A stretch of DNA of 54,685 bases, from positions 1-54,685 of the forward strand of contig NZ_JAAKEC010000021.1 of NCBI RefSeq assembly GCF_011038975.1, written 5' to 3'. Positions 15,858 to 23,990 of this stretch are shown piece after piece (positions within the stretch are counted from its first letter, which is position 1; every line of letters begins with the position of its first letter). The notes under the pieces were generated by a model. It was not told where the DNA came from, did no database searches, and saw only the letters and a program-made list of their open reading frames with translations. Both the position numbers and the translations under genes were made by a program. This DNA comes from Adlercreutzia sp. ZJ176. GTDB taxonomy: Bacteria > Actinomycetota > Coriobacteriia > Coriobacteriales > Eggerthellaceae.

Positions 15858-15924
15858 GACCGTCGGCCGTGCTAATATGAGCGCTTAACTTGAGGGTATT
15901 TTACACAAGTTCTGTTACATGGCG

Positions 15925-15936
15925 CTTAAATTTAAG
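15925..15936. promoter_or_regulatory. 12-bp palindrome CTTAAATTTAAG before the GCS2 gene
   Basis: A perfect palindrome in otherwise GC-rich DNA, 15 bases upstream of the ligase start and beside its ribosome site. It could be an operator for either divergent gene. No match to a known regulator was recognised. Confidence 0.35.
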
Positions 15937-15951
15937 TTCAGGAGTCGGATA

Positions 15952-17217
15952 ATGACCGAGATCGACCAGCCAGCGCGCACGGACAACATCAAAGCCATCG
16001 TTTCGTTCTTCGAAAGCGGCATCAAGGACCGCGCCGAGAAGCTCGGCATCGAGCTCGAGCACACGCTGCTGCACCGCGACGGACGCGCCGTGTCCTACAG
16101 CGAGGAGCACGGCACCGAATGGCTGCTCGAGCAGCTGAGCGCGCACTACACCGTCGAGACGCGCGATGCCGAGGGCGACCTTCTCGGCGTGGCGCGGGGG
16201 CCGCAGGCCGTGACCATCGAGCCGGCGGCGCAGGTCGAGCTCTCCGCCGGGCCCTTCGCGGACCTCGACGACGCCCGCGCGTGCTTCGAGGAGTTCGAGG
16301 AGCGCATGGCGCGCGCGCTTGCGCCGACCGACGTGCGCGTGCTCACGCTCGGCTACCACCCCACCGCCCGCGCCGCCTCGCTCGAGCTCATCCCGAAGCG
16401 CCGCTACGAGCTCATGAACCGCTATCTGGGCGCCATCTCGCCGTTCGGCGTGCGCATGATGCGCGGCAGCGCTTCGACGCAGGTGTCCCTCGACTATACC
16501 TCCGCGGAGGACTGCCTGCGCAAGCTGCGCCTGGCCTTCGCGCTCACGCCCGTGCTGTCGCTTCTGTGCGACAATTCGCCCGTGTTCGAGGGAGCGCCGC
16601 GCCCCCACGAGCTGATGCGCACCGAGATCTGGAAGTTCTGCGACCCCGACCGCTGCGGCGTGGTGCCGCGCGTGATGGAGGACGGATTTGCGCTCGAGGA
16701 CTACGCGGCCTACATCCTCGACGCGCCCGCCATCCTCTCCCCCGACGCCGACGAGCAGTGGCGCTTCGACGAGCGCACATTCGGGGAGATCTACGCCGAG
16801 GTCCCCATGCGGCAGGCCGACGTCGAGCACGCGCTGTCCATGTTCTTCACCGACGTGCGCCTCAAGACCTACATCGAGATCAGGCCGGCCGACGCCATGC
16901 CCGTCCCCTACGTGATCGCCTACGCGGCGCTCATCAAGGGGCTGTTCTACTCCGCGCGCAGCCTCGACGCGCTCGACGAGCTGTTCGCGCAGGTGAGCGC
17001 CACGGACATCGCGCGCGCGAAGGAGTCGCTGATGGAGGCGGGCTACGAGGGCGCGATCTACGGGCGCCCCGCGGGCGAGGTGGTCGACGACGTGGTGCGC
17101 ATCGCGCAGGCGGGGCTGGCCGAGAAGGACCGCGCACACCTGGAGCCGCTGGCGCAGCTCGCTGCCGAGCGCACGACGCTCGCGCGCCTCGCCTGTCGGG
17201 AAGATGTGCGCGCGTAG
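15952..17217 (+). CDS. Glutamate-cysteine ligase, GCS2 family
   Basis: A 421-residue protein with the GCS2 features: substrate/ATP-binding GIELEHTLLHRDG (32-44), AQVELSAGPF and LGYHPTARAASLELIPKRRYELM, ending with helices rich in Asp and Ala. The family makes gamma-glutamylcysteine from glutamate, cysteine and ATP. The EgtA branch feeds ergothioneine, others glutathione; no gshB or egt partner is in the window, so the end product is unknown. The start at 15952 follows AGGAG at 7 bases; an earlier in-frame ATG at 15919 lacks such a site. It is divergent from argC. Confidence 0.8.
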   Translation: MTEIDQPARTDNIKAIVSFFESGIKDRAEKLGIELEHTLLHRDGRAVSYSEEHGTEWLLEQLSAHYTVETRDAEGDLLGVARGPQAVTIEPAAQVELSAGPFADLDDARACFEEFEERMARALAPTDVRVLTLGYHPTARAASLELIPKRRYELMNRYLGAISPFGVRMMRGSASTQVSLDYTSAEDCLRKLRLAFALTPVLSLLCDNSPVFEGAPRPHELMRTEIWKFCDPDRCGVVPRVMEDGFALEDYAAYILDAPAILSPDADEQWRFDERTFGEIYAEVPMRQADVEHALSMFFTDVRLKTYIEIRPADAMPVPYVIAYAALIKGLFYSARSLDALDELFAQVSATDIARAKESLMEAGYEGAIYGRPAGEVVDDVVRIAQAGLAEKDRAHLEPLAQLAAERTTLARLACREDVRA

Positions 17218-17866: not shown

Positions 17867-18607
17867 CTAGCTTGCGTACATGCTGGCGTAGGGGCGCGAC
17901 GAGGCGGGGCGCAGCCGCCAGAAACCCTCGCCGTCATCCGCCACAGGCGCGCCGAGCTCGTCGGCGAACGCGACGTTGTAGCGCCCGAGCAGATCGCGCA
18001 AAAGCTCCTTGTCCGCCTCGTCAACCTCTTCGAGCACCAGCCCCTGCGGCACGTCCTGCTCGTCCAGCCTGCTGCGCAGGTAGATCACGCCACCGTGCAT
18101 GCCCGTGGCCAGGTACTCGCCCGGCCTGCCCAGAAGCACGATGACGCCGCCCGCCATGTACTCGCCGAGAAAGCTCCCCGCGTCCCCGCCGATCACGATG
18201 GCGGGGCACTTCTGCTCGTACTGCTTCATGTGGATGCCCACGCGCCAGCCGCACCCGTCGCGCACGAAGATCTCGCCGCCGCGCATGGCGTAGCCCGCCG
18301 CGTCGCCGCAGCGCCCGTGGATGACGACGCTGCCCGCGTTCATGGTGTTGCCGATCTGGTCCTGGGCGTTGCCGAACACCTCGATGGCACCGCCGTCCAT
18401 ATAGCAGGCCATGTCGTTGCCGGGCGTTCCGTGGATCTCGAGGCGCTTGCCCGCGGGCATGGCGCAGCCGAGATAGCGCTGTGCGTACACGCAGTGCAGC
18501 TCCACCACGTCGGCGTGCTCGAGCGCCACGCGCACCTGCTCGTTGGCCTCCTTGAAGTGAGCTGTTCCCAGCTCGACTGATGCCCGCGTCGTCAGCTCCT
18601 GGGCCAT
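17867..18607 (-). CDS. Glutamate synthase GXGXG-domain subunit (third gene)
   Basis: A stand-alone version of the C-terminal beta-helix domain of the glutamate synthase large subunit, 246 residues. It shows the repeating glycine pattern (GTPGNDMACYMDGG, GNAQDQIGNTMNAG, GRCGDAAGYAMRGG, GGDAGSFLGEYMAGG). In the fused enzyme this domain supports the structure linking amidotransferase and FMN domains. Here it follows the FMN gene by 33 bases. Similar split genes occur in archaea and as GlxC-type proteins in proteobacteria. A formylmethanofuran dehydrogenase subunit C shares the fold, but the neighbours favour glutamate synthase. Confidence 0.85.
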   Translation of the reverse strand: MAQELTTRASVELGTAHFKEANEQVRVALEHADVVELHCVYAQRYLGCAMPAGKRLEIHGTPGNDMACYMDGGAIEVFGNAQDQIGNTMNAGSVVIHGRCGDAAGYAMRGGEIFVRDGCGWRVGIHMKQYEQKCPAIVIGGDAGSFLGEYMAGGVIVLLGRPGEYLATGMHGGVIYLRSRLDEQDVPQGLVLEEVDEADKELLRDLLGRYNVAFADELGAPVADDGEGFWRLRPASSRPYASMYAS

Positions 18608-18640: not shown

Positions 18641-20149
18641 TCACTCTCCCGCGTATTTCACGCCGAGGATCTCAAGCTCCTTCTCGTTGAGCCCCACGCC
18701 GCGCAGCATGAGGCGGTTGCCGCGCAGGCTGTCGATGGCGTTGATGCCCATGCCGCCCATCATCTCCTGGATCTCGTGGTTCCAGCCGCGGATCAGGTTG
18801 ACCACGCGCTCGGCCGCGACCTCAGGGTTGAGGCGGCGGGTGAGCTCGGGGCGCTGCGTCGCGATGCCCCAGTTGCACTTGCCGCTCGAGCAGTCGCCGC
18901 ACTGGTGGCACCCCAGCGCGATGAGTGCCGCCGAGGCGCAGTAGACCGCGTCGGCGCCGAGCGCGATGGCGCGCACCACGTCGGCCGAGTTGCGTAGGGA
19001 GCCCGCCGCCACCAGGCTCACCGTGGAGCGGATGCCCTCGTCGCGCAGGCGCTGGTCGACGGCGGCCAGCGCAAGCTCAATGGGGATGCCCACGTTGTCG
19101 CGGATGCGCTTGGGCGCGGCGCCGGTGCCGCCGCGGAAGCCGTCGACCACGATAATGTCAGCCCCTGCGCGCGCCATGCCCGACGCGATGGCGGCCGCGT
19201 TGTGCACGGCGGCGATCTTCACCAGGATGGGCTTGGCGTAGCGCGTGGCCTCCTTCAGCGAGAAGATGAGCTGGCGCAAGTCCTCGATCGAGTAGATGTC
19301 GTGGTGGGGCGCCGGCGAGATGGCGTCGGTGCCCTGGGGGATCATGCGCGTGCGCGACACCTCGGCGTTGATCTTCTCGCCGGGCAGGTGCCCGCCGATG
19401 CCGGGCTTGGCACCCTGGCCGATCTTGATCTCGATGGCAGCGCCCGCCTCGAGGTAATGGGGGTCGACGCCGAAGCGGCCCGAGGCCACCTGCACGATGG
19501 CGTTTGCCGCGTAGGGCTCGAGGTCGCGGTGCAGGCCGCCCTCGCCCGTGTTGAAGTACGTGCCCAGCTCGCGCGCCGCCATGGCGAGCGCCATCTGCGT
19601 GTTGAGCGAGACGGAGCCGAAGCTCATGGCCGAGAACATGAGGGGGACGTCGAGTTTGATCTGCGGCGGCATCGGGGAGACGAGCTTGTGCTCGCGCTCG
19701 TTGACCTTGAGCATGCCCGGGCGGCTGCCCAGAAGCACGCGAGTCTCCATGGGCTCGCGCAGAGGGTCGATGGAGGGGTTCGTGACCTGGCTCGCGTTCA
19801 GGAGCAGGTGGTCCCAGTAGATGGGGTACGGCTCGGGGTTTCCCATCGAGGACAGGAGCACCGCGCCGGTCTGCGCCTGCTTGGCGATGTCCTGCATGGA
19901 GCCGAGCGTCCAGTTCGCCGACCCGCTGTCAACTTGAGGCCATCGGGTGATGGCGATGGCCTTCGTGGGGCACATGACCACGCAGCGCTGGCAGTTCACG
20001 CACGCGGCATAGTCGGCCACCACCACGCGTCCGAGGTCATCGTCGACGCGGTGGACCTGGTTTGAGCACGAGCGCTCGCACACGCCGCACTGGACGCACA
20101 GGTCGCGGTCGCGCTCCACCTTGTAGCGGGGAAGCAGGTAGTCGAGCAT
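18641..20149 (-). CDS. Glutamate synthase FMN/Fe-S subunit with N-terminal ferredoxin domains
   Basis: A 502-residue protein. Residues about 15-65 carry two 4Fe-4S motifs (CVQCGVCERSC and CVNCQRCVVMC). The rest is the glutamate synthase FMN barrel, with the glycine-rich GEGGLHRDLEPY, IKIGQGAKPGIGGHLPG and VDGFRGGTGAAPKR segments and the Fe-S binding GCHQCGDCSSGKCNWG. It would use electrons from ferredoxin or another carrier through its own Fe-S domain to reduce 2-oxoglutarate plus ammonia to glutamate. No GltD-type NADPH subunit is next to it. The ATG follows GGAGG inside the preceding gene, 4 bases after its stop. Confidence 0.9.
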   Translation of the reverse strand: MLDYLLPRYKVERDRDLCVQCGVCERSCSNQVHRVDDDLGRVVVADYAACVNCQRCVVMCPTKAIAITRWPQVDSGSANWTLGSMQDIAKQAQTGAVLLSSMGNPEPYPIYWDHLLLNASQVTNPSIDPLREPMETRVLLGSRPGMLKVNEREHKLVSPMPPQIKLDVPLMFSAMSFGSVSLNTQMALAMAARELGTYFNTGEGGLHRDLEPYAANAIVQVASGRFGVDPHYLEAGAAIEIKIGQGAKPGIGGHLPGEKINAEVSRTRMIPQGTDAISPAPHHDIYSIEDLRQLIFSLKEATRYAKPILVKIAAVHNAAAIASGMARAGADIIVVDGFRGGTGAAPKRIRDNVGIPIELALAAVDQRLRDEGIRSTVSLVAAGSLRNSADVVRAIALGADAVYCASAALIALGCHQCGDCSSGKCNWGIATQRPELTRRLNPEVAAERVVNLIRGWNHEIQEMMGGMGINAIDSLRGNRLMLRGVGLNEKELEILGVKYAGE

Positions 20150-20153
20150 GCGC

Positions 20154-21350
20154 TTACGCCTCCTTCCTTCTCCGCGGCAGAACGCCCACCTCGTGCTTGA
20201 ACGGCTTGGCCGACGGCGTGTTCTCCGCCGACTCGCCGCGCTTGCGGCGGGCCACCTCGTCGAGCTGGACCACGAACGGCACGCCGCCGTCGATGGAGCG
20301 CACGTTCTCGGCGTCGGGGCACACGACCTCGATGGCCGCCTGCTCGCTGGCCAGGTACACCAGGGAGCCCTTCTCGGCCACCATGAGCGCGCGCAGCTTG
20401 AGGCGGTCGTTGAGGGCGAGCAGCCCCTCGTCGGAGCCGAGGATCACCGAGAACGGCCCGTTCACGAGGGCGCTCGAGTAGGTGGCGCGCAGCGCCGTCT
20501 CGAAGGCGGCGCGCTCGGGGCTCATGCGGTCGATGTCATCCCACGAGCTGGCCGTCATGATGTGCGCCGCCATCTCCTGCGAGAACCCGTGGCGGCGGGA
20601 CAAAAGGTCGAACAAATACGTGATGACCTCGGTGTCCGTCTGGAGCTCGCAGTCGTAGCCGAACTGCTCGACGTAGCGGCGGTTGGCGTCGTAGCTGGAG
20701 ATCTCGCCGTTGTGCACCACCGACCAGTTGAGCAGCGTGAAGGGGTGCGCGCCGCCCCACCAGCCGGGCGTGTTGGTGGGAAAGCGCCCGTGCGCCGTCC
20801 ATGCCCATGCCCGGTAGTCCTGGATGCGGTAGAACGCGCCGATGTCCTCCGGGTAGCCGACGCCCTTGAAGGCGCCCATGTTCTTGCCCGACGAGGCCAC
20901 GAAGGCGCCGTCGATCTGGCCGTTGATGTGAAACACGTGCTGCATGGTGTACTCGGACTCGTCCAAGCCGCTCATGTTGAGGCGCATGGGGTGCGGCGCC
21001 ACGAAGTAGCGCCATATGTCGGGCGGGTTCTTGATGGAGCCGACGCTCTCCGTGGGGATGCGCTCCTGCTTCTCGCTCATGAAGTGCTTGTCGAGGTAGG
21101 CTTCCGTCTCCGCGCGCGCGTCACGGCTCTCGTACATGATGTGGAACGCGTAGAGGTCCTGGTACTCAGGGTAGATGCCGTACGCCGCGAATCCGCCGCC
21201 GAGGCCGTTGCCGCGGTCATGCATGAGGGCGATCGACTTCAGGATGTCGCTTCCGTCGTGCCGCTCGCCGCTGCGGTCCATGATGCCCGCGATGGCGCAG
21301 CCCGAGGGTATCCTGACGCGCCCCTCCCTGAGGCTTTCCCTGTTCTGCAT
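20154..21350 (-). CDS. Glutamate synthase class II glutamine amidotransferase subunit (first gene)
   Basis: The 399-residue product is a class II (Ntn) glutaminase domain. The nucleophile is Cys18 in PSGCAIAGIMD, so a 17-residue propeptide must be removed. AHGRFPTNTPGWWGGAHPF, VVHNGEISSYDANRRY and DTEVITYLFDLL match the glutaminase domain. It should hydrolyse glutamine and pass ammonia to the FMN subunit. The ORF is open further upstream, but ATG 21350 has GAGGAG at about 8 bases, and the upstream part belongs to the attenuator-like leader. Confidence 0.9.
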   Translation of the reverse strand: MQNRESLREGRVRIPSGCAIAGIMDRSGERHDGSDILKSIALMHDRGNGLGGGFAAYGIYPEYQDLYAFHIMYESRDARAETEAYLDKHFMSEKQERIPTESVGSIKNPPDIWRYFVAPHPMRLNMSGLDESEYTMQHVFHINGQIDGAFVASSGKNMGAFKGVGYPEDIGAFYRIQDYRAWAWTAHGRFPTNTPGWWGGAHPFTLLNWSVVHNGEISSYDANRRYVEQFGYDCELQTDTEVITYLFDLLSRRHGFSQEMAAHIMTASSWDDIDRMSPERAAFETALRATYSSALVNGPFSVILGSDEGLLALNDRLKLRALMVAEKGSLVYLASEQAAIEVVCPDAENVRSIDGGVPFVVQLDEVARRKRGESAENTPSAKPFKHEVGVLPRRRKEA

Positions 21351-21352
21351 GG

Positions 21353-21365
21353 GTATGCTCCTCGT
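21353..21365 (-). repeat. 13-nt direct repeat, copy 2 (glutamate synthase ribosome site)
   Basis: The minus-strand string ACGAGGAGCATAC, containing the ribosome site of the amidotransferase gene, recurs exactly at 21576-21588, where it lies inside a nine-codon ORF. Duplication of a Shine-Dalgarno region within one leader is unusual. Confidence 0.7.
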
Positions 21366-21371
21366 CTCAAT

Positions 21372-21428
21372 AGGAAAAAACCCAGCCATGCAGGCGCCCT
21401 GCGCCCCCGCCGCCGCAGACCCCACGGC
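21372..21428 (-). terminator. Attenuator-like terminator in the glutamate synthase leader
   Basis: On the minus strand CAGCCGTG pairs with CATGGCTG (one G-U pair) around a GC-rich inner hairpin (GGCGC-AGG-GCGCC), and TTTTTT (21375-21380) follows immediately. The structure ends only 25 bases before the start codon and downstream of other leader elements, so it looks like an attenuator rather than the end of an upstream gene. Confidence 0.6.
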
Positions 21429-21534
21429 TGAGCACGAGGTCCGAGGTCATGCCCGCGCCTGAGGCCGCGACCGCCTCGCGCGTCGAAAGAACCCGCGTAG
21501 CGGGGCGGTTGACGGAGGCGCAGGGCGCCTGCAT
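21388..21534 (-). repeat. 18-nt perfect inverted repeat in the glutamate synthase leader
   Basis: GGCGCAGGGCGCCTGCAT at 21517-21534 is the exact complement of 21388-21405. The leader RNA therefore makes ATGCAGGCGCCCTGCGCC first, and later a full complement inside the terminator stem. Pairing the two would break the terminator. The upstream copy can also be held in its own stem: 21507-21513 pairs with 21541-21547 (GGTTGAC / GTCAACC). Confidence 0.7.
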
Positions 21535-21567
21535 CCTGTGGTCAACCCAGCATAGGCGGCTATTGTT

Positions 21568-21594
21568 TCAGGCGCGTATGCTCCTCGTTTCCAT
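21568..21594 (-). CDS. Nine-codon ORF in the glutamate synthase leader
   Basis: ATG at 21594 to TGA at 21568 encodes METRSIRA. Only AGG abuts the ATG, so initiation is doubtful. The same ETRSI codons recur just before the amidotransferase start because of the 13-nt repeat. It may be a remnant of a duplicated start region rather than a gene. Confidence 0.2.
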   Translation of the reverse strand: METRSIRA

Positions 21595-21602
21595 CCTGTT
21601 TC

Positions 21603-21639
21603 ACGTGCGGCCCCGCGCAGCTCGCGCGAGGCCGCACGC
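21603..21639 (-). terminator. Long GC-rich hairpin after the unknown gene
   Basis: GTGCGGCC-CGCGC pairs with GCGCG-GGCCGCAC around AGCT, just past the stop of the 21652-22521 gene. No T-run follows, so it is a probable but not certain terminator or transcript-end stabiliser. Confidence 0.45.
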
Positions 21640-21651
21640 GCTTAAGGAGGC

Positions 21652-22521
21652 TCAGGCCGCCGTCTTCAAGGCGTCAAGCTCAACCAGGGCCTGGAGCAGG
21701 TCGATCCAGCTGTTGTAGTTGAAGAGCTCGGCGATCCTCGTGAGCCGGAAGACGTAGTCCTCGTCAGAGGGAGACAGGCGTCCCACAGGTACCTCCGGTG
21801 CGAACAGGACCTCCCCCGAAAGGCCGTCCTGGCCGTCCAAGAAGCGCTCCTTGCGCCAGGCCGCCCCGCGAGGAGGCCGGCGCGCCCGCGCCGCGCCGAA
21901 CCCGAAGTACGTCATGGCCCAGAAGACGCTTCCCACCGCGAGGCAGCGCTCCTTGCCGCACAGCGACCGCGGAACCCACATGCGCCGGCCGAGCGTCTCA
22001 GACCACGGCTCGAAGGCGAGCGGGAGCACCGAGCGCTCAAGGCGCCTCCACGCCCACGGCCTGCCGGCGCACGCGCGCCCGACGCCGCCTTCCGCGTCTC
22101 GCAGCGCCGCGAGCCCCGCCACGCGGGATGCTCCCCCGTCAAGCAGCGCGGCCATCTCGGGCACGTCGGCGCCGTCGAGGACAGCCGCCCCCACGCGCCG
22201 CCGCAGCGTGCCCCGCGCGTCAACCACCTCGAGCCACTCCCAGGGAACGACGAGGCTCTCCGGATGCGCGTCCGCACGCGACGGCACGTTGAGCATGCAG
22301 CGCAGCGACGCCTCGATCTTGCGGACGAGCGCCTCCGCGCAGGCCCCGTCAAGCGCCTCAACCGAGACGTGCCACCCCGCCTCGGCGCCGAGGACGGCCT
22401 CGAGGAGATCGCGCGAGGCGCACGACGCCAGCGCCTCCCTCACCGTGATGACGTCATCTGCGTTGACCTCAAGCTCTCCGAAGCAGAACTGCCGATTGTT
22501 GTCACCTGACTGCGCTGACAT
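21652..22521 (-). CDS. Unknown protein under a LexA-like box
   Basis: A 289-residue soluble protein without signal or membrane segments and with no family recognised. It has a polar N-terminus (SGDNNRQFCFGELEV), several Trp-rich patches (WEWLEVVD, RPWAWRRLERS) and an acidic end (SPSDEDYVFRLTRIAELFNYNSWIDLLQALVELDAL). The ATG at 22521 follows AGAGGTG. The reading frame is open much further upstream (to 23760), but that part is the shadow of the permease gene. Its promoter has TATACT with a GAAC-N4-GTTC palindrome across the -35, which suggests DNA-damage control. Function unknown. Confidence 0.65.
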   Translation of the reverse strand: MSAQSGDNNRQFCFGELEVNADDVITVREALASCASRDLLEAVLGAEAGWHVSVEALDGACAEALVRKIEASLRCMLNVPSRADAHPESLVVPWEWLEVVDARGTLRRRVGAAVLDGADVPEMAALLDGGASRVAGLAALRDAEGGVGRACAGRPWAWRRLERSVLPLAFEPWSETLGRRMWVPRSLCGKERCLAVGSVFWAMTYFGFGAARARRPPRGAAWRKERFLDGQDGLSGEVLFAPEVPVGRLSPSDEDYVFRLTRIAELFNYNSWIDLLQALVELDALKTAA

Positions 22522-22568
22522 GCGGATCACCTCTTCGATTTTCGTACACCTGTTCTTTTTCGTAGACA

Positions 22569-22597
22569 GTATAGCACGAAGAGGGAACATTTGTTCA
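22569..22597 (-). promoter_or_regulatory. Promoter with LexA-like operator before the unknown gene
   Basis: Minus-strand -35 TGAACA (22592-22597), 17 bases, -10 TATACT (22569-22574). The palindrome GAACATTTGTTC (22585-22596) overlaps the -35. Its GAAC-N4-GTTC core is the consensus of Bacillus/actinobacterial LexA boxes (established knowledge). Overlap with the promoter is where a repressor site would be expected. Confidence 0.6.
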
Positions 22598-22649
22598 GAG
22601 AAATTTGCACTATTTTTCGAATTATGCGGCAGCGCGCGAGGACATCCGC

Positions 22650-23990
22650 CTAAACCTCGTCCTCCACCACGAGCGGACCCTCCACCTTGGCATCCTTCGG
22701 CAGCACGAGCGACAGCACGATGGCCACCACGAACACCACGGCCACGCAGTTGGTGGCGAACACGCTCTGCACGAGCGCGGGAAACGCCCCGAAGATGTCG
22801 CTCATCTGGGTGAACCCGATGCCCACCGCGAGCGAGAGCGCGGCGATGGTGATGTTGCGCTGCGTGAAGCCGGCGCTCGCGATCATCTGAAAGCCGCTCA
22901 AGATGATGTTGCCGAACATCATGATGGTGCACCCGCCGAGCACCGCCTCGGGCAGCGACGAGAACGCCAGGCTCACCACCGGCACGAACCCGGCGAGCAC
23001 GAGCACGAACGCGCCCGTGGCGATGGCGCGGCGGTTCACCACCTTCGTCATGGCGATCAGCCCCACGTTCTGCGAGAACGACGTCACCGGCGAGCAGCCG
23101 AAGCAGCCCGAGAACGTGCTCGTGAAGCCGTCGGCCACGATGGCGCCGGAAAGCTCCTTGTCGGACGGCGCGCGCTTGAACGCCACGGCCGTGAGCGCCG
23201 ACACGTCGCCGATGGTCTCGGTAGCCGACACCAGAAAGATCAGCGTGATGGAGATGATGGCGCCCAGGTCGAGCACGGGCGTCACCGGCATGAGCGTCGG
23301 CAGCGCGACGGGAGCGGCGCCCGCGAACACGCTGAAGTCCACCTTGCCGAGCGGGATGGCCACCACATAGCCCACGAGCAGGCCGAACAGCACGGCGAGC
23401 TGCTTGGTGGTGCCCTTCGCCAGCGCCTGGAACGCCAGGCACGCCACGAGCGACACCGTGCCGAGCGCCAGGTTCTCCCACGAGCCGAAGTCCTCGGCGC
23501 CCGAGCCGCCGCCGAACGACGCCGCGCCCACGCCCAGAAGCGAGAACCCGATGGCCGTCACCACCACCGCCGCCACGATGGGCGTGATGATGCGCCGCCA
23601 GTACTGCGCGAACAGGCCGAGCACGCCCTCGACGACGCCGCCCACGATGACGGCCCCGATGAGCGCGCCGTAGCCGGACGTCGCCGCGATGGTGCAGGCC
23701 ACCGACACGAACGTGAAGCTGATGCCCATGACGATGGGCAGGCCCGAGCCCGCGCGCCACACGGGGAACAGTTGGATGAACGTGCCGATGCCCGCGATAA
23801 GCATGGCGTTCTGGATGAGCAGCGCGCCCTGCTCGGAGGAGAGGCCCGCAGCCGCCGCGATGATGGCGATGGGCGCGAGGTTCGCCACGAACATGGCGAG
23901 CACGTGCTGGAGCCCGTACGGGAACGCCCGCGCCAAAGGGATCTTCGCGTCAAGCGACGAGAGCGCCGCGGCGTCTATCTTCCCGCTCAT
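22650..23990 (-). CDS. pbuX: Xanthine/uracil permease (NCS2 family), probably xanthine
   Basis: A 446-residue integral membrane transporter with about 14 hydrophobic segments, starting near [11 protein letters not shown] (a NCS2 hallmark), with [13 protein letters not shown] and [17 protein letters not shown] blocks. It should import xanthine (or another oxopurine) with a proton. The specificity call rests mainly on coupling to xpt: its start overlaps the xpt stop (ATGA at 23987-23990), as in xpt-pbuX operons of Firmicutes. Uracil or urate transport is the alternative. No purine riboswitch was found ahead of xpt. Confidence 0.88.

Follow-up and report, generated by a model that had tools for sequence, protein, structure and literature searches.

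Evidence for a structured leader with a covarying 5' hairpin behind a GlnR-type promoter at the split glutamate synthase genes of Adlercreutzia and related Eggerthellaceae

Results

The gltB locus

The stretch of DNA analysed here, referred to as the window, comprises 54,685 nucleotides (positions 1 to 54,685 of contig NZ_JAAKEC010000021.1) from Adlercreutzia sp. ZJ176, whose nearest named relative by GltB is Adlercreutzia sp. ZJ473 (97% identical). An earlier note on this DNA, made from the sequence alone, had described the operon of a split glutamate synthase, and Pfam recovered each of its glutaminase, FMN and GXGXG parts:

17867-18607, minus strand: GXGXG-domain subunit of the split glutamate synthase (PF01493, 1.1e-30)
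18641-20149, minus strand: glutamate synthase FMN-domain protein (PF01645, 2.9e-139; several Fer4 models)
20154-21350, minus strand: gltB, the glutaminase (class II amidotransferase) part of the split glutamate synthase (PF00310, 1.9e-11; PF13522, 3.3e-9)
21350, minus strand: ATG start codon of gltB, read from the sequence
21358-21366, minus strand: Shine-Dalgarno region GACGAGGAG of gltB, read from the sequence

Downstream of gltB, likewise on the minus strand, come the FMN-domain gene, the GXGXG-domain gene, an unassigned open reading frame (ORF), argC, argJ and argB. The FMN-domain protein (18641-20149, minus strand) carries a 4Fe-4S ferredoxin region at its N-terminus.

A GlnR-type promoter ahead of gltB

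Upstream of gltB lies an array of regularly spaced sites followed by a -10 hexamer, from which a transcription start can be predicted:

21549-21602, minus strand: GlnR-type box and promoter, GAAAC-n6-GAAAC-n6-CATAC-n6-GAAAC (21602-21565), then 10 nt and the -10 hexamer TATGCT (21554-21549)
21540-21544, minus strand: predicted transcription start, about 7 nt past the -10 hexamer (~21542), from promoter geometry

For the comparison with relatives, 85 leader records were reduced to 61 distinct leaders by their last 140 nt, with near-copies counted separately. After exclusion of six leaders whose genomes are more distant (L016-L021), 55 remained, and the removal of L116 and L128, wrongly anchored duplicates of L039 and L048, left 53. 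Two truncated homologues, in G108 and G031, were kept out of the leader set, and the promoter counts leave out L069-L098, three of which are outgroup proteins in the GltB tree described below. The pattern G[A/T]AAC-N10-TANNNT precedes gltB in 46 of the 53 distinct leaders, while shuffled sequences are expected to yield 0.34 of 55. Among the seven leaders lacking the pattern, L045, L046 and L055 contain a near match with GAATC, as judged by eye, and L147 and L148 are divergent homologues. The GAAAC at -22 is clear, whereas the other sites are looser: the upstream sites at 11-bp steps represent a consensus and are absent from some leaders.

When the four-site box was searched without the -10 hexamer and with at most one mismatch, 13 matches were obtained in nine genomes; the box is present at gltB in all nine (eight exact, one with a mismatch), the four further matches lie elsewhere, and the reversed control gave no match in the same genomes. 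With the -10 hexamer included, gltB was matched in 10 of 12 genomes, one of which has an extra match elsewhere, and none was found in the remaining two, G067 and G068. In the genome of the window itself, the exact match at gltB is the only match to the promoter pattern at up to one mismatch.

In two papers on actinomycete GlnR, the arrangement of the box is given as gTnAc-n6-GaAAc-n6-GtnAC-n6-GAAAc (PMC10704036, PMC3087709). The GlnR box promoters of Streptomyces glnA, amtB and other nitrogen genes carry GTnAC- and GAAAC-like sites in an a-b-a-b order with an 11-bp period, and the gltB box is alike, except that its a-sites are GAAAC and CATAC and so deviate from the gTnAc given there. Two further differences are that the host here belongs to another class, the Coriobacteriia, and that a structured leader follows the promoter in a subset of genomes. 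Seven OmpR-type regulators are encoded in the genome of the window. One of these, chosen by eye for its atypical receiver, was compared with the PDB, and its best matches were 8hig (1.5e-34) and 8hih (5.9e-30), which we take to be GlnR structures. By this comparison, the genome encodes a predicted GlnR-like protein. Together with the box arrangement, the presence of such a protein suggests that the gltB promoter is likely controlled by GlnR.

The promoter bears on a further proposal of the earlier note, namely a duplicated ribosome site. A 13-nt direct repeat is indeed present (21353-21365 and 21576-21588), but its upstream copy covers the end of a GAAAC, the spacer GAGGAG and the CATAC site of the promoter box, and the predicted transcription start (~21542) lies downstream of this copy. 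The box and the start region share a stretch of at most 13 nt in the window, compared with 8 nt in L031 and 4-6 nt in the other ten leaders of the element group defined below, and also 4-6 nt in four further leaders compared. A second ribosome site was therefore rejected, as the upstream 13-mer lies within the GlnR-type box and is not conserved. The earlier reader had overlooked the promoter, and also that its box contains the second copy of the 13-mer.

Repeats and alternative folds in the leader of the window

The leader is dominated by an inverted repeat with arms at 21388-21409 and 21513-21534 (22 nt at 95%), whose exact core of 18 nt (21388-21405 and 21517-21534) is separated by 111 nt. 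Dinucleotide shuffling of the same 300 nt, repeated 1000 times, gave exact inverted repeats of 13 nt at most. The repeat arms form the closing stem of a long hairpin, P1, with which a local hairpin competes:

21517-21534, minus strand: 5' arm of P1, repeat copy 1 (22 nt at 95% from 21513; repeat search and covariation)
21388-21405, minus strand: 3' arm of P1, repeat copy 2 (to 21409 at 95%; repeat search and covariation)
21381-21432, minus strand: local terminator-like hairpin, competitor of P1, followed by T6 at 21375-21380 (folding)

The local hairpin abuts the T tract and has a predicted energy of -31.2 kcal/mol (z -2.6, equalled by 3 of 200 shuffles), and T6 ends 24 bases ahead of the gltB ATG. 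The first repeat copy can also be folded on its own (21508-21545, -15.3 kcal/mol, z -3.1, equalled by 1 of 200 shuffles). The structural observations of the earlier note hold in the window: the exact 18-nt complement some 110 bases on, the terminator-like hairpin, the six T's before gltB and the possible sequestration of the first copy in a stem of its own.

The whole minus-strand leader folds with -138 kcal/mol (z -4.9), and its minimum-energy fold includes P1 and excludes the local hairpin at 21381-21432. The plus strand of the region folds about equally well (z -4.8), as is the case for any inverted repeat, so that the assignment of the strand rests on the gene and the promoter. A scan for consensus terminators, restricted to loops of 3-8 nt, did not call the T6 site and called another small hairpin within the leader (21504-21492, minus strand, followed by TTCTTTC); with 3 sites in 3.7 kb, the count lies within the shuffled range (1.8, sd 1.6). 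This compact GC hairpin (21492-21504, minus strand) is located among the inner helices of the long hairpin, in a region where L031 differs.

The hairpin covaries among related leaders and has a scattered distribution

The P1-closed hairpin lies next to the predicted 5' end of the RNA, starting no more than about 10 nt from it. It was assigned to 12 leaders, namely those of the window, L031, L033, L036, L049, L050, L058, L062, L063, L149, L065 and L142, hereafter the element leaders. They were selected partly by the presence of CGGACC, and this 6-mer is all that L033 and L036 have of the loop motif; L034, which carries CGGACC outside the apical loop, was not counted. The element is thus found in only 12 of the 53 distinct leaders, and the remainder are short leaders or have other folds.

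Covariation among related gltB leaders, the check named in the earlier note, was found in P1. Over the 12 leaders, 18 of 26 pairs are changed on both sides, with pairing in 74.6% of cells. The covariation score of 0.378 compares with 0.226 (sd 0.022) for shuffled alignments and at most 0.191 for slid versions, over which P1 is favoured since its structure was drawn from the same sequences' own folds. RNAalifold, run on a sequence-only MAFFT alignment of the 12, returned part of P1, with 12 of 14 pairs changed on both sides. When the analysis was restricted to the five leaders that aligned best, two-sided changes were seen in 8 of 28 pairs, with a covariation score of 0.379 against 0.219 for shuffles; one of the five measures in this test, the number of further pair types, was not above the shuffles (15 versus 17.1). 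The fold z-scores of the element leaders range from -2.2 (L036) to -9.8 (L031), and the inner helices of the hairpin vary among species.

Several relatives lack the full element. L032, which comes from the genus of the window, carries the promoter, yet its fold is weak (z -1.8) and CGGACC is missing, and L066, L047 and L048 have a short 5' hairpin only, which lacks the loop motif. In L066 (~1936-2000), a close relative of L033, this is a 12-bp 5'-terminal hairpin, as though the interior of the element were deleted.

On a tree of 43 GltB proteins, without L142, the element requires five changes; the mean for shuffled assignments is 9.9, and 1 of 500 was as low. By this measure the element is clustered on the GltB tree without being confined to one clade. 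The leader of Gordonibacter pamelaeae (L063) is similar to the Enteroscipio leader (L062) but not to the Gordonibacter leaders L049 and L050, and the GltB tree groups them likewise.

Searches of genomes with model R1 recovered nothing beyond its training set, with matches in 11 of 138 genomes of the family and 8 of 396 of the class, all at gltB, together with opposite-strand echoes in two Gordonibacter genomes. The filters were strict, scoring was limited to 21 or 7 candidates in each genome, and known members went undetected (G113 in one run; at least G005 and G028 in the other), so that weak copies may exist elsewhere. Model R2, built from five long members, did not recover the seven held-out members: L033 gave an E-value of 0.93, L149 a partial match on the opposite strand (E 0.67) and the other five nothing at the element, and the best score was obtained for L032 (E 0.12; opposite strand 0.042). 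The grouping of short and long forms as one element is based on position, loop motif and shared hairpin, with no independent match by a model.

The earlier note had been unable to place the leader in a recognised class, and indeed no Rfam covariance model gave a gathering-level match in the leader or in 12 relative loci. The Rfam E-value search returned two miRNA families only, far under their cut-offs (26 of 80 bits and 17.4 of 90).

A shared motif in the apical loop

The apical part of the hairpin contains the most widely shared sequence of the leader:

21436-21445, minus strand: apical loop motif CUCGGACCUC, containing the shared 8-mer CGGACCUC (motif sharing)

Because the leaders had been grouped partly by CGGACC, the motif was also tested without grouping, in the 21 promoter-bearing leaders of at least 120 nt. 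CGGACCTC is present in 10 of these, compared with a mean of 0.13 and a maximum of 2 in 300 rounds of shuffling, and it is the 8-mer common to most independent groups of long leaders (six groups). The runner-up, ACCACAGA, lies near the 5' end and is common to five groups. CGGACC alone occurs in 13 of the 21, where 2.4 are expected. L049 and L058 share 22 identical nucleotides around the motif, with most of the other hairpin sequence divergent.

The motif reads CGGACCUCC in 8 of the 12 element leaders, a sequence like the anti-Shine-Dalgarno end of 16S rRNA. Its 10-nt complement, GAGGTCCGAG, occurs once in the genome of the window (G000), as the antisense of the element itself. Over G000, G002, G061, G112, G102 and G097 it occurs 24 times, six of which are the elements, and the five genomes other than G000 each contain 2-8 further sites; the reversed control occurs 63 times, a difference that may be explained by codon usage.

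Discussion

The promoter pattern, the hairpin with its covariation, the motif in the loop and the absence of a conserved T tract can all be read from the sequences compared here, and we consider it very probable that gltB of the window and its relatives is preceded by a real structured leader under a GlnR-type promoter. In the explanation that we favour as a whole, and to which we give a probability of about 0.5, the mRNA of the split gltB would be started by the GlnR-type promoter at ~21542 on the minus strand, with both the start site and the binding of GlnR predicted from the promoter. The long P1-closed hairpin, the apical part of which displays CGGACCUC, would start no more than about 10 nt from the 5' end of this RNA. 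The hairpin would act after initiation, most likely by shielding the 5' end or through processing of the mRNA, and the loop would most likely be read by a trans-acting factor, either a protein or an RNA, that tunes gltB output. In the lineage of the window, where T6 lies beside an overlapping hairpin, termination may have been added.

One might speculate further that the element represents an undescribed class of cis-acting leader in the Eggerthellaceae, in which a fast-evolving, covarying hairpin started by GlnR uses its CGGACCUC loop to dock a nitrogen-linked RNA-binding factor; we regard this more specific proposal as tentative. If true, docking at the CGGACCUC loop would constitute a post-transcriptional layer on top of GlnR control. 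The combination of a GlnR-type promoter and a structured leader on the split glutamate synthase would provide a sequence-based entry to nitrogen control in Gordonibacter, Adlercreutzia and related gut bacteria of the Eggerthellaceae, and the loop motif is a concrete handle for finding an RNA-binding regulator. In the open-access literature, to which our search was confined with subscription literature outside its scope, we found nothing on a gltB leader in Eggerthella or Gordonibacter or on GlnR in Coriobacteriia. The structured gltB leader is apparently new, whereas the nitrogen promoter that precedes it is of a known type.

The leader hairpins that are bound by ANTAR proteins or CsrA have conserved loop nucleotides and a GGA in the loop. 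The gltB loop is likewise conserved and contains GGA, whereas the proteins themselves are scarce: CsrA was found in none of nine genomes (3 of 14 control genomes were positive), and an ANTAR protein was found in one of the nine (G061), which is not the genome of the window, with 0 of 14 positive in a control that consequently says little. Both were rejected as partners of the loop, as they are absent or rare in the nine genomes.

The earlier note had proposed the logic of a riboswitch or a protein-controlled attenuator. The trp and T-box leaders exemplify attenuation by an intrinsic terminator, and competing stems with a T tract are likewise present in the window, where P1 would be the antiterminator and the hairpin at 21381-21432 with T6 the terminator, switched by a ligand or a protein. 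P1 and the local folds are both stable and mutually exclusive there, the local hairpin abuts T6, and a further terminator-like hairpin, compact and followed by TTCTTTC, is found inside the leader (21504-21492). Two Gordonibacter leaders, L049 and L050, also have six T in 8 nt where P1 ends, which brings the leaders with at least six T in 8 nt to 3 of 12; L062 has five. In the other 9 of 12 there are fewer than six, T6 itself is confined to the window, and the closest relative, L031 (97% GltB identity), has four T in 8 nt and at most three in a row. Unlike that of an intrinsic-terminator attenuator, the T tract is hence not conserved among relatives, and with its presence in 3 of 12 leaders and its loss in L031, termination is not the conserved function. 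The whole-leader fold, which contains P1 and not the local hairpin, and the terminator scan, which skipped the T6 site and called no more sites than some shuffles, also argue against a switch. What stands of the proposal is a real structured leader ahead of gltB, with covariation and no match to a described RNA family, and the possibility of exclusive folds in the window; a conserved terminator was not found, the riboswitch has little in its favour (see below), and attenuation as the function of the element is in our view unlikely.

A second alternative, which we judge improbable to a similar degree, is a hairpin without a regulator, serving just as a stable 5' end or as the processing site of a double-strand-specific RNase. 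The position of the long stem close to the predicted start in all 12 leaders and the short, motif-less hairpins of L066, L047 and L048 are in keeping with this. On the other hand, the loop motif is kept while the stems diverge, as in the 22 nucleotides shared by L049 and L058, and this speaks against a hairpin without a regulator.

Much less probable is that the loop pairs with another RNA, be it a trans target or the ribosome site of gltB, as a small-RNA or anti-Shine-Dalgarno element of the CCUCC type. The eight motifs reading CGGACCUCC might point in this direction, but pairing with the leaders' own start regions was not significantly above that of shuffled cores in any of the 12 (P 0.11-0.97), and masking of the start site by the loop was rejected on this ground. 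A perfect 10-nt complement of the loop as a target in trans was rejected as well, since the genome of the window has no second site beyond the antisense of the element.

We consider a metabolite riboswitch, sensing glutamine, ammonium or a similar compound, to be very unlikely, even though the element precedes a nitrogen gene and has a conserved motif. Only about eight nucleotides are strongly shared, they lie outside the junctions in the predicted folds, and the inner helices differ by species. The glnA and Downstream-peptide RNAs are riboswitch candidates that were later shown to bind glutamine. The position of the gltB element ahead of a glutamate synthase gene is one that it has in common with these RNAs, as glnA RNAs are, according to one report, leader RNAs also found ahead of glutamate synthase genes (PMC2864571). 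The gltB leader differs from them in being a long rod with a loop motif, and as it has no Rfam match, it does not belong to the known glutamine riboswitch classes.

Finally, a leader peptide encoded by the conserved core, whose frame in the window and L031 runs without a stop from an ATG at the 5' end until shortly upstream of the ribosome site of gltB, was rejected as hardly credible given the substitutions in four close pairs (synonymous/nonsynonymous 3/19, 5/16, 1/9 and 3/22, without third-position bias), gaps of 1 or 2 nt, and the lack of an in-frame ATG or GTG between the predicted start and the core in 5 of 12 leaders.

Other features of the window

The unassigned ORF between the GXGXG subunit and argC (15901-17139, minus strand, 412 amino acids) gave no match to Pfam and NCBIfam profiles, and its opposite strand is also open (15919-17217), so that the coding strand is uncertain. 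An ORF of 702 amino acids (21652-23760, minus strand), likewise without a match to Pfam and NCBIfam profiles, lies directly upstream of the gltB promoter, and a strong inverted repeat lacking a T tract (21604-21638) sits between this ORF and the promoter box. At the edge of the window, positions 1-90 on the minus strand correspond to the 5' end of a 16S rRNA gene.
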